In this document: in pieces, positions 1-8,918 of the stretch | Layout: every line of letters starts with the position of its first letter | Position numbering within the stretch: position 1 is the first letter of the stretch | Source: Cytophagaceae bacterium | GTDB taxonomy: Bacteria > Bacteroidota > Bacteroidia > Cytophagales > Cytophagaceae | Reading direction: 5' to 3' | Assembly (NCBI GenBank): GCA_025455005.1 | Contig: JALONH010000019.1 | Coordinates: 1 to 54,531 of the forward strand | DNA length: 54,531 bases | Translations under genes and position numbers: made by a program | The notes under the pieces: model-generated | Told to the model about the DNA's origin: nothing | Seen by the model: only the letters and a program-made list of their open reading frames with translations | Databases searched by the model: none

Positions 1-2120
1 GTTGTTACGAATCTCAGTATTTCAAAGAATGAAAGCAAATCACAACATAATGTGTTATTCTTAACAGAACCATTTAGTTGTTACGAATCTCAGTATTTCA
101 AAGAATGAAAGCAAATCACAACTATAGTCAAGCAGGCAGAATAGCATATCTTGTTGTTACGAATCTCAGTATTTCAAAGAATGAAAGCAAATCACAACCT
201 TTGGAAGAAGCTAAAAAGCTTTATCCAAGTTGTTACGAATCTCAGTATTTCAAAGAATGAAAGCAAATCACAACACCGGCATTATCATTGTCAATATCAG
301 CCTGGTTGTTACGAATCTCAGTATTTCAAAGAATGAAAGCAAATCACAACACATCAACTAATTGACCATTTGCAGGATTGGTTGTTACGAATCTCAGTAT
401 TTCAAAGAATGAAAGCAAATCACAACATATATAACACCCATGGCAAAAGCAAAAGAAGTTGTTACGAATCTCAGTATTTCAAAGAATGAAAGCAAATCAC
501 AACTACGTGAATGGGAACAATCAAGCGGACCTGTTGTTACGAATCTCAGTATTTCAAAGAATGAAAGCAAATCACAACCTGTAGAATCCTCCATGCTGAG
601 CATCTCCAGTTGTTACGAATCTCAGTATTTCAAAGAATGAAAGCAAATCACAACCTTAAAACCAACCACCCTTTAACCCCTTACGTTGTTACGAATCTCA
701 GTATTTCAAAGAATGAAAGCAAATCACAACAATGTCACCTGTCTTTATGTTAGCTAAGTGTTGTTACGAATCTCAGTATTTCAAAGAATGAAAGCAAATC
801 ACAACTAATGATCGGTGTAGTGATTCCAAATAACTGTTGTTACGAATCTCAGTATTTCAAAGAATGAAAGCAAATCACAACATACTTCCGGTACGCGATC
901 ATTTAATGTGGTTGTTACGAATCTCAGTATTTCAAAGAATGAAAGCAAATCACAACGCAGTTGACGCCGTTAATCCTGATGCCTCGTTGTTACGAATCTC
1001 AGTATTTCAAAGAATGAAAGCAAATCACAACGTCATATTTGCAGAGGTAGCCGAACCTTTAGTTGTTACGAATCTCAGTATTTCAAAGAATGAAAGCAAA
1101 TCACAACTCGGCAAATGACGACAAAACAGATTTCCAAGTTGTTACGAATCTCAGTATTTCAAAGAATGAAAGCAAATCACAACGCAGTTGACGCCGTTAA
1201 TCCTGATGCCTCAGTTGTTACGAATCTCAGTATTTCAAAGAATGAAAGCAAATCACAACTTTGATTTATATTTAACCACACTCCAATTAGTTGTTACGAA
1301 TCTCAGTATTTCAAAGAATGAAAGCAAATCACAACGGGTTATGAAAATAGGTAAAAATATAAGCTGTTGTTACGAATCTCAGTATTTCAAAGAATGAAAG
1401 CAAATCACAACGGACATGAACGGCACAAGTGTTCCTGCACTGTTGTTACGAATCTCAGTATTTCAAAGAATGAAAGCAAATCACAACGGATGATCGTTTC
1501 CCCCTACTATTCATAGGTTGTTACGAATCTCAGTATTTCAAAGAATGAAAGCAAATCACAACCCTACCTCAGCTGTAGCATCATTCCCACCGGTTGTTAC
1601 GAATCTCAGTATTTCAAAGAATGAAAGCAAATCACAACACTGAAAGTGATCGTTGACGGTGTTACCGTGTTGTTACGAATCTCAGTATTTCAAAGAATGA
1701 AAGCAAATCACAACTTACACATCAATATTGTACAATTAAATAGTTGTTACGAATCTCAGTATTTCAAAGAATGAAAGCAAATCACAACAATGGAACAATT
1801 GTAACATTAACTAAGTCGTTGTTACGAATCTCAGTATTTCAAAGAATGAAAGCAAATCACAACTTTTGTATTATCCGTTGTATCGAAATAATCGTTGTTA
1901 CGAATCTCAGTATTTCAAAGAATGAAAGCAAATCACAACACACCAACTATTGAAGTATGGTAAACAATAGTTGTTACGAATCTCAGTATTTCAAAGAATG
2001 AAAGCAAATCACAACGCCCATGATGGAACACCACCGTTGGTACCGTTGTTACGAATCTCAGTATTTCAAAGAATGAAAGCAAATCACAACAGCCATTTGT
2101 TTACTTCATCAATTGCAACA

Positions 2121-2171
2121 GTTGTTACGAATCTCAGTATTGTATTTCAAAGAATGAAAGCAAATCACAAC
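2121..2171. repeat. Aberrant CRISPR repeat with a 5-bp tandem duplication
   Basis: This repeat copy is 51 nt instead of 46 because GTATT is duplicated in tandem after repeat position 21. It directly follows the spacer at 2091-2120, which occurs a second time at 3915-3944. Such an insertion would change the crRNA repeat stem that pairs with tracrRNA, so maturation of the adjoining crRNA may be impaired. Confidence 0.9.
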
Positions 2172-2854
2172 GGTAAGGCTATCGACCAAGAAGCCAAAGA
2201 AGTTGTTACGAATCTCAGTATTTCAAAGAATGAAAGCAAATCACAACGCCATCATGGAATTTACAAAGTCTGTAGGTGTTGTTACGAATCTCAGTATTTC
2301 AAAGAATGAAAGCAAATCACAACTAATTCAAAATCATCTACATCTAAACCGTCGTTGTTACGAATCTCAGTATTTCAAAGAATGAAAGCAAATCACAACT
2401 GTAACTAACTGAGTTGCTACAAGCCTTTGGTTGTTACGAATCTCAGTATTTCAAAGAATGAAAGCAAATCACAACTAAGTTAAAGTGGAGAATTAAGGAC
2501 ACGCGTTGTTACGAATCTCAGTATTTCAAAGAATGAAAGCAAATCACAACGAACTGATCAACTTCCGGCGCAAAATTTAAGTTGTTACGAATCTCAGTAT
2601 TTCAAAGAATGAAAGCAAATCACAACTTACGATCCGCTTTTACCTTTAAGTAAATAGTTGTTACGAATCTCAGTATTTCAAAGAATGAAAGCAAATCACA
2701 ACCTTGCATATTCATATGCTCAAAGTCATATGGTTGTTACGAATCTCAGTATTTCAAAGAATGAAAGCAAATCACAACTACTCCATAATATTCATAATAG
2801 CATGGTGCGTTGTTACGAATCTCAGTATTTCAAAGAATGAAAGCAAATCACAAC

Positions 2855-2884
2855 TAAAAAAAGGGGGTTTCCCCCCTCTATTTA
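2855..2884 (-). terminator. Spacer that carries an intrinsic-terminator sequence on the crRNA strand
   Basis: Read on the minus strand this spacer contains GGGGGGAAACCCCC followed by seven T. That is a five-pair all-G:C stem closed by a GAAA-type loop and then a T tract, the form of a rho-independent terminator. It was presumably captured from a phage or plasmid terminator. Whether it stops transcription of the array is unknown. Confidence 0.6.
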
Positions 2885-3944
2885 GTTGTTACGAATCTCA
2901 GTATTTCAAAGAATGAAAGCAAATCACAACCCATAAGGACTTTGGCTATTATCATCTACAGTTGTTACGAATCTCAGTATTTCAAAGAATGAAAGCAAAT
3001 CACAACTTAACCTCTTGGGCTACGCTAGTGGCTTTCGTTGTTACGAATCTCAGTATTTCAAAGAATGAAAGCAAATCACAACATGGTGAACATTCGGCCC
3101 AAATGGTTCAAGAGTTGTTACGAATCTCAGTATTTCAAAGAATGAAAGCAAATCACAACCATAACTATTCATTTTGTCAGGTTCTAACGTTGTTACGAAT
3201 CTCAGTATTTCAAAGAATGAAAGCAAATCACAACATATTAGCCATAGCTTGAGCATACTGAATAGTTGTTACGAATCTCAGTATTTCAAAGAATGAAAGC
3301 AAATCACAACCCTATCCCAATCGTCACGTTTAGAATCTTGTTGTTACGAATCTCAGTATTTCAAAGAATGAAAGCAAATCACAACATTGAGGGCATCGGA
3401 GATTTGTTCCGGGAGGTTGTTACGAAACTCAGTATTTCAAAGAATGAAAGCAAATCACAACGCTCTCAGTACAACGGTTATGATGAAAAAGTTGTTACGA
3501 ATCTCAGTATTTCAAAGAATGAAAGCAAATCACAACGGTTGGATATCACCAACAGGCATTCCAATAGTTGTTACGAATCTCAGTATTTCAAAGAATGAAA
3601 GCAAATCACAACCCTTTAGTGATTTTGTAACCTACTATACGGTTGTTACGAATCTCAGTATTTCAAAGAATGAAAGCAAATCACAACTACTGACTATAAC
3701 ACGTGCTATAAGCAAGTGTTGTTACGAATCTCAGTATTTCAAAGAATGAAAGCAAATCACAACTTTCCAATACCTTTACTACAAAATATTTTGTTGTTAC
3801 GAATCTCAGTATTTCAAAGAATGAAAGCAAATCACAACTAGCCCCATTTGTTTTTTCAGCCATTCGCCGTTGTTACGAATCTCAGTATTTCAAAGAATGA
3901 AAGCAAATCACAACAGCCATTTGTTTACTTCATCAATTGCAACA

Positions 3945-3977
3945 GTTGTTACGAATCTCAGTATTTAAATTAAAAGA
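3945..3977. repeat. Truncated CRISPR repeat (22 nt) plus an 11-nt remnant
   Basis: The repeat starting at 3945 keeps only its first 22 nt, is followed by 11 unrelated AT-rich bases, and the next full repeat begins at 3978. It follows the second copy of the duplicated spacer (3915-3944). The break falls at the same repeat position as the GTATT duplication in the copy at 2121-2171. Confidence 0.9.
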
Positions 3978-5913
3978 GTTGTTACGAATCTCAGTATTTC
4001 AAAGAATGAAAGCAAATCACAACTAAGCCTATAGAGTATTACTCGGCTATCGAGTTGTTACGAATCTCAGTATTTCAAAGAATGAAAGCAAATCACAACT
4101 GAACGCATACTACCACTATTAAGAACTTCGTTGTTACGAATCTCAGTATTTCAAAGAATGAAAGCAAATCACAACGTTCAAACGGTTGCATATTTATTTG
4201 TTAATGTTGTTACGAATCTCAGTATTTCAAAGAATGAAAGCAAATCACAACTGCGCTATGTCAACGCTTATAAAACCCAACGTTGTTACGAATCTCAGTA
4301 TTTCAAAGAATGAAAGCAAATCACAACCTTGTAGAAATCTGTTGGTTATCTATAGGGTTGTTACGAATCTCAGTATTTCAAAGAATGAAAGCAAATCACA
4401 ACCCTGTTGACGTGTCAACTCTTGTAACTTCAGTTGTTACGAATCTCAGTATTTCAAAGAATGAAAGCAAATCACAACGTTGTGCTCAATTGCAAATGCA
4501 ATTTTCTGTTGTTACGAATCTCAGTATTTCAAAGAATGAAAGCAAATCACAACTAATCAAAAAAAGGTTGCTTGTCTTGTCGGGTTGTTACGAATCTCAG
4601 TATTTCAAAGAATGAAAGCAAATCACAACATCTCAGATGTTTGGAATAAATACTGCGTAGTTGTTACGAATCTCAGTATTTCAAAGAATGAAAGCAAATC
4701 ACAACTTCAAACACAGAAGTTATCTTAGGTGCTACAGTTGTTACGAATCTCAGTATTTCAAAGAATGAAAGCAAATCACAACCACATTGGCAGACTTTTC
4801 TAAAGCTTTGTGTTGTTACGAATCTCAGTATTTCAAAGAATGAAAGCAAATCACAACGGTTTTCGACAACGGTAATTGAGCCTGCAAGTTGTTACGAATC
4901 TCAGTATTTCAAAGAATGAAAGCAAATCACAACGGTAGGCATTAGATACTGTATATCGTTCTCGTTGTTACGAATCTCAGTATTTCAAAGAATGAAAGCA
5001 AATCACAACACATTACATAAAGTAACTCCAAACATGGCGGTTGTTACGAATCTCAGTATTTCAAAGAATGAAAGCAAATCACAACAAGACCATCGAAACG
5101 TACACATACAAAGGGGTTGTTACGAATCTCAGTATTTCAAAGAATGAAAGCAAATCACAACCAATTACCGGCTGTTAATTCGAAATCGTAAGTTGTTACG
5201 AATCTCAGTATTTCAAAGAATGAAAGCAAATCACAACGAACGGGATGACGTGCCATACGACGATTTAGTTGTTACGAATCTCAGTATTTCAAAGAATGAA
5301 AGCAAATCACAACTTCTACGTTACGACATGAACGCATTACATCGTTGTTACGAATCTCAGTATTTCAAAGAATGAAAGCAAATCACAACTACTAAACGCT
5401 TTGTCCTTTTAGCATCACCGTTGTTACGAATCTCAGTATTTCAAAGAATGAAAGCAAATCACAACTGCTTAATTGTTCGGCATCTAAGCCTCTAAGGTTG
5501 TTACGAATCTCAGTATTTCAAAGAATGAAAGCAAATCACAACCTGTAGATGTGTCTACTCTAGTAACTTCACGTTGTTACGAATCTCAGTATTTCAAAGA
5601 ATGAAAGCAAATCACAACTTCTATTCGTGCTTGGTGTAGCAATGCTAGGTTGTTACGAATCTCAGTATTTCAAAGAATGAAAGCAAATCACAACCATCTT
5701 TCGTTGGTTTAGGATGGTTAGTATGTTGTTACGAATCTCAGTATTTCAAAGTATGAAAGCAAATCACAACCGTCATTCGTTGGCTTAGGATGGTTAGTAT
5801 GTTGTTACGAATCTCAGTATTTCAAAGTATGAAAGCAAATCAGGAATGGAGGTTCTAAAGCGTCGTTTCTTATATTCTATTTAGCTATTTTATTCAATCG
5901 CCTCTTCATTTCA

Positions 5914-6033
5914 ACAGAGAACCCGGAGGAAGGCACAGAGTTTCACCGAGGATTCGTTGAATATTACTTTCGCTCTGTATCTCTTTTTAATACTCTGTGA
6001 AACTCTGTGTTTTTCTCTGTGTTACTCTGTGGT
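5914..6033. repeat. Stem-loop-forming intergenic repeat, copy 1
   Basis: The left arm (5915-5950, containing CACAGAGTTTCACCGAG) is the imperfect reverse complement of the right arm (5993-6033, CTCTGTGAAACTCTGTG and onward), so the DNA could fold into a long imperfect hairpin with about 40-base arms. Bases 5914-5995 recur at 6179-6260 with only about five differences in 82. CTCTGTG/CACAGAG motifs repeat within the arms. No coding potential is convincing in this 560-bp gap between the array and the next gene. Confidence 0.7.
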
Positions 6034-6178
6034 TTTTCTTATTAAGCATATAATACATCCGTACATCATTTATTCGTGGTCCATTCCTTTCACCCTGTTT
6101 CAGTCTTCTGTTTCTCTTACTGTTTCTGTTTCTCACTATTCTATTCACTTAGTAAAGCGTTAGTGGCACTTGTATTAC

Positions 6179-6260
6179 ACAGAGAACCCGGAGGAAGGTA
6201 CAGAGGTTCACAGAGGGTTCGTTGAATATTACTTTCGCTCTGTATCTCTTTTTAATACTC
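6179..6260. repeat. Stem-loop-forming intergenic repeat, copy 2 (decayed right arm)
   Basis: This is a second copy of the 82-bp unit found at 5914-5995, 265 bp downstream and in the same orientation. The CTCTGTG-rich right arm that follows copy 1 is recognisable here only as a degraded version (about 6261-6310). The pyrimidine-rich stretch between the copies (6060-6150) shows nothing I can assign. Confidence 0.7.
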
Positions 6261-6405
6261 AGTTTAATTCTGTGATAAATGTACCCTCTATGTTTTTCTC
6301 TATACCACTCTCTTCGTTTTGTCCTACTTTTCCCAAAATGGGAAAAAATTGCTAGTAGACGCACTGAAATTTTTATTCTCTATACCCATCCCTTAGTTTC
6401 GCAGC

Positions 6406-8301
6406 ATGAAAGGAACCTCCATTTTTCTTCTATACTGTTTTTTATATACGAGTGTGTGGGCGCATGACGTTCTTCCGGATGCGGAAGTGGAACATCTGGC
6501 CCACCAACTCGAGCACTTAGAACAACACAATCAAACACAGTCCACACCGCAATGGCTACTGGATACTCGGTCTGCTGCGGTACAAGCGGCCTTTCCCTTA
6601 GACGCCAACACCCAACAACAACTTAGACAACGCTTGGCGGTCTTTCAACGGCACCATCCTTCCATTCGCTTATATGTATTAGTCAGTTATATCGTCGTAC
6701 ATACGATTCAAGAAAGTCGCTTATACGATTGGGCGCAAGCAAAAGGACACCCCCTATCCATAGACAATTCCGAAGCGTACACAGCGGATCAAACCCAAGC
6801 TATACTCGACCACTGGAAGCCGGCGGAGGAAGATAGGGACGAGGAAGATAAAGTACTGTTGCTGCATTACCAACAGGTTTTGTCGGGAGCGGCTTGTTAT
6901 TGGAAAGTACACTATGGAGTAGATGTACGCTTTACAAGTGATTTTAATCAACGCTTTAGCAGTTCCTTGCGTTTAGTGGCAGACAATGCCACCATAGCCG
7001 TAAATCCTACGAATCATATATATACGAATATCCAACGGGTAGATGCCGCTATTGATAATCCGGCAGCTGCGGCTAGTAAATATAAAATTCAAACCTATAT
7101 CGGCGATACCTTAATGACCTTGAATAAGGTGTATATACCGACACATATGAACCACGATCCTATTTTTTCTTTTATCCCTACCGACAGTTCAACCGCTTTT
7201 GTCAACATTAAATTAAAAATCGTTAGTGCTCAGCATAAATCCGGAGTCTTCTATCCCGCTACAGGCTATTTGAAACTAGATAAGAACAGACGCATAACCC
7301 TGGATGTCGACAGCTTGGAAGAAGGGAAATACCAAATTCAATGTGAAGGAAGTAATTCTTGTCTAGTTAATTATTTTTATGTGAGAAAGAAGAAACACGA
7401 CTTTGCTTGTAAGTTCTGCGGTAGAGATTTAACTATTACAAATTCGTTTATAAAAACTATTAACAGAAATATATTGTTTTTTGAAAACTATCCATTACAA
7501 CTTTTAGTAATTAATGCTTACTTAAAAAAATATAATTTAAATAGCTGTAAAGGTATTTCACATATTTTATCACAAATAATAGTTGAAACAAAATATCTAA
7601 AAGTATTTGAAGAAGATATGACCTATAGTTTACCTAATATGTTAACAACATTCCGAGACAAGTCTACAGTACAGGATATTTTTTTTAAACAAAGTTTTTG
7701 GGACAACAAACAGTATCTTCGTTATGTTGCCTCCAGCGAAACCTACATAAAAGTAGATACGAATCGTACTGTAAAAGGACAATATGTTAGTTCCAACAGT
7801 AAAAATTATTATTATAAATTCGATAATACTAAATACGTTACCATTTGTGATGCCTTTAATTTTAAAAAGGGGAAAGGGGATTTTAATAAATATAGTTTTA
7901 GTACTGGTCAAAAAGAAGAAAATAAAAAACGATTATTTTCATTAGTGTATTCTAATAAATATGGAAATGGCGACACGACAAGTGAAGACGGATATAAATA
8001 CGCCGGAAAAGGTTTAATCCATTTGACCTGGAAAGAAAATTATATAAAGTATTCCAGACTAGCCAATGCTGAATTTCAAACTTCTTACGATTGGGAAAAA
8101 CACCCGGAGGAAATTAAAAACAATCCTACAGCAATTGTACATTCCGGATTAGTATTTCTTAAAGACAAATTAAATTTCCCTGAACTACATAACAAGACCT
8201 GCGCTGAAGTAAGCCAACTTGTGAACGGAGGTAACAATGGAGCCTCAGAACGTTTAAATTATTTTACAATTATTAATAATCTGCTATTATGTTACAAGTA
8301 A
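6406..8301 (+). CDS. Secreted GH19-like (chitinase/muramidase fold) protein, candidate antibacterial effector
   Basis: A 631-residue protein with an N-terminal signal peptide (hydrophobic to about residue 18, then AHDVLP). Residues 30-330 are not recognised. A CKFCGRD motif (Cys335, Cys338) precedes a C-terminal GH19-like domain, about residues 345-631. It shows the family pattern: Glu394 in SQIIVETKYLK and Glu403 in FEEDMTYS match the two catalytic glutamates of HESGGF...ENLNYS endolysins, and YKYAGKGLIHLTW (from residue 530) matches the conserved YxGRGxIQLT core. Such domains cut chitin or peptidoglycan; with no other chitin gene nearby, peptidoglycan is the likelier substrate (inference). 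Base composition drops within the gene: 30 of 60 bases are G/C at 6481-6540 but only 11 of 60 at 7441-7500. The AT-rich part continues into the next gene, which overlaps by 13 bp. That is the layout of a polymorphic toxin with a swapped C-terminal domain. GH19-like assignment is fairly sure, effector role is inference. Confidence 0.75.
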   Translation: MKGTSIFLLYCFLYTSVWAHDVLPDAEVEHLAHQLEHLEQHNQTQSTPQWLLDTRSAAVQAAFPLDANTQQQLRQRLAVFQRHHPSIRLYVLVSYIVVHTIQESRLYDWAQAKGHPLSIDNSEAYTADQTQAILDHWKPAEEDRDEEDKVLLLHYQQVLSGAACYWKVHYGVDVRFTSDFNQRFSSSLRLVADNATIAVNPTNHIYTNIQRVDAAIDNPAAAASKYKIQTYIGDTLMTLNKVYIPTHMNHDPIFSFIPTDSSTAFVNIKLKIVSAQHKSGVFYPATGYLKLDKNRRITLDVDSLEEGKYQIQCEGSNSCLVNYFYVRKKKHDFACKFCGRDLTITNSFIKTINRNILFFENYPLQLLVINAYLKKYNLNSCKGISHILSQIIVETKYLKVFEEDMTYSLPNMLTTFRDKSTVQDIFFKQSFWDNKQYLRYVASSETYIKVDTNRTVKGQYVSSNSKNYYYKFDNTKYVTICDAFNFKKGKGDFNKYSFSTGQKEENKKRLFSLVYSNKYGNGDTTSEDGYKYAGKGLIHLTWKENYIKYSRLANAEFQTSYDWEKHPEEIKNNPTAIVHSGLVFLKDKLNFPELHNKTCAEVSQLVNGGNNGASERLNYFTIINNLLLCYK

Positions 8302-8918
8302 TACTATTTTTAACTTCAATTTTAAATCAAGAGTCAGATTCTATATGTAATAGAAAGCAATCCGAATCGATTTCTAATATCCTAGCTGACGATACTACTA
8401 TTTGTTATCCTAAAGGTTATTATTTGAATAATGCTGATTTTTTTGATCCAAATTCAAATGATATAGAAGATATTTTACAAACGTATCGTAAAAATAATTT
8501 ACAACAAGGGGATACTTTACTATTGGGAATTTATATAAGGGACAATACTAAAAAAATTATAAGTTCTCGTATTTACAATAACGTATACACACCTAGTTTT
8601 GACCCATTTAAAGATTATAATTATTATAAATCAATAGGTTTAGATTCCATTTATGAAATTTTTCATGAAGTATATTCCTCTACTTTGATTTATAACGATA
8701 CTATAACCATAATGATTCAATCAAATGTTGCGGTACATTTAACGTTTGATTTTACGTTTGATAGTACTATCAATGAGTATACGGCTACAGATTACCGCTA
8801 TATATATGAAGGGTACAAAGGAAAAGTATTACAAGATCGCCGTATCCCATTAGGTCGAACAATGCAGTTACACGAATTCAATATTCTGGAATATTATCTA
8901 AAACATACCGGTGATTGA
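8289..8918 (+). CDS. Hypothetical protein, candidate immunity protein for the GH19-like effector
   Basis: A 209-residue protein that I do not recognise. Its ATG lies 13 bp inside the end of the preceding gene, so the two are probably translationally coupled. The first 15 residues are hydrophobic (MLQVILFLTSIL), which could be a weak signal peptide and would place the protein in the periplasm, where peptidoglycan is attacked. The gene is strongly AT-rich (15 of 60 bases G/C at 8461-8520), like the C-terminal half of the upstream gene and unlike the AsmA gene that follows. Size, overlap and composition fit an immunity protein, but there is no motif evidence. Confidence 0.65.
   Translation: MLQVILFLTSILNQESDSICNRKQSESISNILADDTTICYPKGYYLNNADFFDPNSNDIEDILQTYRKNNLQQGDTLLLGIYIRDNTKKIISSRIYNNVYTPSFDPFKDYNYYKSIGLDSIYEIFHEVYSSTLIYNDTITIMIQSNVAVHLTFDFTFDSTINEYTATDYRYIYEGYKGKVLQDRRIPLGRTMQLHEFNILEYYLKHTGD

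Follow-up and report, generated by a model that had tools for sequence, protein, structure and literature searches.

Two pairs of similar but non-identical spacers in a long CRISPR array of a Cytophagaceae bacterium are very probably the products of separate captures, in each case from diverged relatives of one mobile-element lineage, whose source would be a phage or plasmid. The first-pass annotation of this DNA had proposed that each pair marks the same coding site in diverged relatives, and the proposal is borne out by the synonymous pattern of the differences, by the rejection of mutation inside the array, and, in one pair, by shifted spacer ends. The window (the whole stretch of DNA analyzed, 54,531 nucleotides) is the entire contig C34 of a genome assembled in 45 contigs (2.94 Mb). 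The features concerned are as follows.

1..5842, minus strand (probable crRNA sense): CRISPR array of 46-nt repeats and 28–31-nt spacers; the anti-repeat forms a duplex with the minus-strand repeat.
957..985, no strand assigned: spacer 13 (29 nt), same site as spacer 16.
1184..1213, no strand assigned: spacer 16 (30 nt), with the same left end as spacer 13 and one base longer.
2091..2120, no strand assigned: spacer 28, identical to spacer 52.
3915..3944, no strand assigned: spacer 52, identical to spacer 28 and followed by a truncated repeat.
4403..4432, no strand assigned: spacer 58, first member of pair 2, from the repeat scan and pair comparison.
5543..5572, no strand assigned: spacer 73, second member of pair 2, offset by one base.
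5695..5724, no strand assigned: spacer 75, first member of pair 1, from the repeat scan and pair comparison.
5771..5800, no strand assigned: spacer 76, second member of pair 1, the oldest spacer if the right end is the trailer, as appears probable.
5801..5842, no strand assigned: last repeat, shortened, with an A-to-T change that is also present in the repeat at 5725–5770; taken as the trailer end.

A fuzzy repeat scan of the window found 77 repeats separated by 76 spacers. Spacer 0 and the last repeat on that side sit on another contig, C2, giving 77 spacers in total. The first 99 bases of C2, when reversed, are exactly the first 99 bases of the window, and because of this exact overlap the two contigs are taken to join there. 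The 16-base end of the repeat is also present in four other genomes of the 19-genome family set. The split of the array between C34 and C2 falls at spacer 1 (window 1–99, L009 1–99), which hints at a branching point there, that is, at a duplicate of spacer 1 or at strain variation.

An ungapped comparison of every pair of the 77 spacers, covering both strands, found exactly four similar pairs, with scores of 30, 29, 21, and 17 (identities of 30/30 for spacers 28 and 52, 29/29 for 13 and 16, 27/30 for 75 and 76, and 25/29 at an offset of one for 58 and 73), whereas none of 20 sets generated with an order-1 Markov model exceeded a score of 8. The two differing pairs were thus chosen by similarity alone and not by their codon pattern, because the all-pair score had set them apart. 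Their coordinates and difference counts in the first-pass annotation (3 of 30 and, at offset one, 4 of 29) were reproduced exactly; pairs 28/52 and 13/16 are further redundant pairs absent from it. A protein-level comparison of all spacer pairs gave no further diverged pair, the next best score being 26, compared with 30 in three null sets.

The differences lie at spacer positions 2, 5, and 14 in pair 1, and at positions 6, 9, 15, and 21 of spacer 58 (5, 8, 14, and 20 of spacer 73) in pair 2. All seven are synonymous third positions of open plus-strand frames, which read SFVGLGWLV in both members of pair 1 and VDVSTLVTS in both members of pair 2; the longer peptide annotated earlier for pair 2, PVDVSTLVTS, stands except for its leading P, whose codon is complete only in spacer 58. 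Position 2 of pair 1 falls in a codon that the spacer boundary interrupts (NCA/NCG), and the change is synonymous whatever the first base. Thus, seven of seven differences occupy third positions and none occurs at the other 39 of the 59 aligned sites (Fisher P = 2e-4). When the same number of changes was placed randomly in 4000 simulations per pair, the probability that all were synonymous third-position changes in some open frame was 0.040 for pair 1 and 0.0085 for pair 2 (joint P = 3.4e-4). With seven differences, the codon argument taken alone is of moderate strength. The two pairs differ in what they say about the frame. On the minus strand, pair 1 would need one K/N change, and only the plus frame SFVGLGWLV is free of changes. 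Pair 2 is also open and fully synonymous on the minus strand (EVTRVDTST in both members), so its coding strand is not revealed. The earlier statement that the pairs disclose the coding frame of the targets therefore applies to pair 1, which fits one frame, but not to pair 2, which fits two frames on opposite strands. Across all spacers, open frames were not clearly enriched on either the plus strand (1.73 versus 1.68 ± 0.07 in shuffled sequences) or the minus strand (1.66 versus 1.56 ± 0.09).

Mutation inside the array, which the first-pass annotation had itself named as a competing origin, was tested against the repeats and rejected. In the window, 76 of the 77 repeats have no insertion or deletion, and these 76 contain three substitutions over 3492 sites, of which the last repeat contributes its remaining 42 bases; the T variant common to two repeats is perhaps one event copied once. 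At this rate, the two pairs would be expected to hold 0.1 changes, but seven are seen (P ~2e-11), and the comparison is fair because repeats are about as old as the spacers adjoining them. The identical units 28 and 52 could be explained by rearrangement, and one member of each differing pair might likewise be derived from the other by mutation after duplication of a unit. However, selection on codons cannot act inside the array, where a third-position bias would be meaningless, and copying of units in the array would not give the shifted ends of pair 2 or the different lengths of spacers 13 and 16. We therefore give this origin almost no credence. Hardly more can be said for spacers derived from the host's own genome or for an assembly error, an explanation to which the fragmented assembly (the window being one contig of 45) and the split of the array at a 99-base overlap lend themselves. 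Degenerate patterns for both peptides matched only the array copies in the own genome, and assembly errors would not respect codon phase.

The longest exact repeat within the array, found where spacers 28 and 52 agree, is 99 bases long, as is the contig overlap. If an exact spacer duplicate were flanked by two perfect repeats, the shared stretch would span at least 122 bases, and such duplicates may have collapsed in, or broken, the assembly, depending on an assembler word length that is our assumption; same-site pairs could therefore be undercounted. The repeats after both copies are damaged (window 2121–2171 and 3945–3977), one having a 5-base tandem duplication and the other being truncated with ~11 bases added, and both depart near the same repeat position.

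By the features tested, the array belongs to a type II-C CRISPR–Cas9 system. On C2, spacer 0 and the last repeat are followed by cas2, cas1, a 124-amino-acid ORF, an AAA_14/DUF4143 gene, and a cas9 gene encoding 1379 amino acids; the contig carries two whole repeats beside the cas genes, and only ~117 bases separate the last repeat (ending at L009 173) from the cas2 ORF (from 291). Cas9 matched TIGR01865 above the cut-off (1.3e-113), whereas 4 of 14 control genomes gave matches and none of these exceeded it. The protein also contains Pfam RuvC_III (1.9e-58) and HNH_4 (2.7e-16), and its best-scoring solved relative is CbCas9 (8iyq, 180 bits). Type II Cas1 and Cas2 are encoded near cas9 (PADLOC Cas1_II, 5.6e-104; Cas2_II, 4.2e-47), with the AAA_14/DUF4143 gene and the 124-amino-acid ORF between cas9 and cas1. 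The absence of Cas4 separates type II-C from type II-B, and that of Csn2 separates it from type II-A. Cas4 (PF01930) had no match in the own genome and matched in 8 of 14 control genomes; Csn2 (TIGR01866) had no match in the own genome, but none in the 14 controls either. A tracrRNA with its anti-repeat before cas9 is predicted from pairing: a putative anti-repeat (~L009 7931–8005) forms 16 bp with the minus-strand repeat, with a duplex energy of −24.2 kcal/mol. An Rfam search of L009 1–9200 gave no match at the gathering score.

The neighborhood of the locus has further peculiarities. A 64-base copy of the cas9 3′ end (88% identical; L009 2298–2361 and 3756–3819) adjoins the 3′ end of the AAA_14/DUF4143 ATPase gene between cas9 and cas1, which suggests an insertion with local duplication. 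The whole CRISPR–cas locus is flanked by direct copies of a CACAGAG-rich repeat (window 5914–6330 and L009 8545–9126) that are 87–90% identical over ~350 bases. The 28-base core of this repeat has five genomic occurrences when up to two mismatches are allowed, every one of them at these two flanks. Elsewhere in the genome, the repeat has eight weak matches of 40–50 bases, all on contig C1, and weak short matches occur in 3 of 18 other family genomes. The flanks could be the boundaries of an island that is mobile or can be excised. Two adjoining ORFs beside the array (631 and 209 amino acids; window 6406–8918) had no Pfam match at E 0.001.

The guide RNA most likely has the sense of the minus strand of the window, because the anti-repeat pairs better with the minus-strand repeat than with the opposite strand (−24.2 versus −17.1). 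In the type II-C system of Riemerella, new insertions are reported at the cas2 side (PMC6008519), and in Flavobacterium columnare the guide is taken as transcribed from the old end (PMC5524643). By analogy, the right end of the array in the window is probably the old (trailer) end, where the last repeat is shortened and has a base change in common with its neighbor. With this orientation, the PAM would be expected on the left side of each spacer in window orientation, and spacer 76 would have entered before 75, and 73 before 58.

Here, we propose how the pairs may have arisen by separate captures from diverged relatives. The host would have encountered relatives of one element on more than one occasion, and these would have kept the same protein at the site while diverging at silent positions. 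Cas1–Cas2 would then have taken the same target site twice, because the usable sites are limited in a lineage met repeatedly. The first-pass annotation had noted that nearly the same site was hit by different acquisitions in the second pair; the shift by one base agrees with this, but the observation is not peculiar to pair 2, since the members of pair 1 have the same ends. The older guide probably matched the newer relative poorly, because in each pair two of the mismatches would fall among the nine bases nearest to the likely PAM side. Random sampling from ~730 sites (95% range, 286–2685) would give the four same-site pairs seen among 77 spacers, if all sites are used equally and 28/52 is taken to be a repeated capture; counting only three pairs raises the estimate to ~975.

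The members of pair 1 are neighbors, and those of pair 2 are 15 units apart. Taken over all four pairs, members lie at somewhat shorter array distances than expected by chance (P = 0.035 for the summed distances), and two of the four pairs are at an array distance of 3 or less (P = 0.032). This closeness is not predicted by plain random sampling from a constant pool and counts against it, but would be expected if the relatives circulated at about the same time. It also leaves room for guided re-sampling, in which a mismatched old crRNA leads Cas9 and Cas1–Cas2 back to the site on a relative, in a priming-like process of a type II-C system. Priming around a partially matching spacer is described for the type II-A system of Streptococcus mutans, in which 55% of the first new spacers lay within 2.5 kb of the old site; the passages considered do not mention the very same site (PMC8265633). 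As the limited site pool accounts for the number of pairs without guidance, we consider this process very unlikely to be the origin of the differing pairs. A broader form of the idea, that all four same-site pairs are its traces and that the array updates an outdated, silently mismatched entry with the current sequence of a relative, is decidedly improbable. A further possibility is that two diverged gene copies (paralogues) in one element, or co-present relatives, were sampled in one period. Spacers 75 and 76, being neighbors, were possibly taken close in time, and paralogues are also expected to diverge synonymously. However, the same explanation would be needed twice, and the distance of 15 units in pair 2 does not favor it; we regard this reading as improbable.

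Targets were searched for with nine of the 77 spacers (0, 13, 16, 28, 52, 58, 73, 75, and 76), and no target or protospacer was found for these in viral contigs, genome contigs, phages, plasmids, or family and phylum genomes. A degenerate pattern for FVGLGWLV matched nine loci in viral contigs, with 8 to 14 mismatches to the two spacers over 30 bases; at three of the nine (L018, L019, and L020), the motif is in a stop-free frame of >150 codons. L018, which differs at 11 and 10 of 30 bases from the two spacers, encodes a phage major tail protein (phrog_88, 9.9e-19). Its 16 similar phage records, which come from other hosts, comprise 13 Lactobacillus phages and 3 unannotated human-gut phages, a relative is encoded in only two further viral contigs, and it was treated as a weak, probably chance lead and not as the target. 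The minus-strand pattern of pair 1, TNHPKPT(K/N), matched four loci with 8 to 12 of 30 differences in stop-free frames of 49 to 141 codons. The PVDVSTLVTS pattern and its minus-strand counterpart EVTRVDTSTG matched none, and the exact sequences of spacers 28/52, 13 (the part common to 13 and 16), and 0 had no match each. In the genome contigs, the pair 1 pattern with the serine codon matched two loci, in Opitutus and Planctomycetota MAGs; one is in a 38-codon frame and one in a protein that looks membrane-bound, and neither was taken as a target. Phage searches with single spacers gave a best E of 0.6 for 76, 58, 73, and 16 (E up to 10) and no match for 75 (E up to 1), and plasmid searches with 58 and 76 gave none (E up to 1). 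Pair 1 in the 19 family genomes, and pair 2 in these and 395 phylum genomes (own genome included), matched only the own array. Most spacers have no known protospacer, which is ascribed mainly to unsampled viruses that are diverged relatives of known ones (PMC7308287).

The type II-C system of Riemerella anatipestifer, for which acquisition was measured and a PAM of 5′-GWATTN upstream of the protospacer reported, has an array of 15 spacers (PMC6008519), compared with 77 in the present system. The C1 locus of F. columnare (type II-C) resembles it in that transcription of the crRNA is assumed to start from the conserved end, spacers matching phages were added over time at the variable end, and protospacers changed in later phages (PMC5524643). 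It differs in that its array lies after cas9 and before cas1/cas2, and in that the four protospacer changes described as most specific were non-synonymous, whereas all seven differences here are synonymous. In a hot-spring mat virome, sequences matching a spacer differed by silent or conservative changes and may evade the spacer (Heidelberg et al. 2009, PMC2612747); those are viral variants compared with one spacer, whereas here both variants are stored in one array. The main text of PMC7308287 does not contain the word codon and hence no codon-phase comparison of spacers. In the open-licence literature, covered mostly by titles and the beginnings of abstracts, no prior use of synonymous differences between two spacers of one array was found; such use may exist. 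Silent protospacer variation is already published, and the pairs are a tidy case of a known phenomenon, expected of a known immune system and read from the array alone. An array can thus show, without any target genome, that its targets are protein-coding, conserved at the site, and from a diverging lineage, and the count of same-site pairs gives a rough size of the target-site pool. Both kinds of inference can be extended at little cost to further long arrays without known targets.
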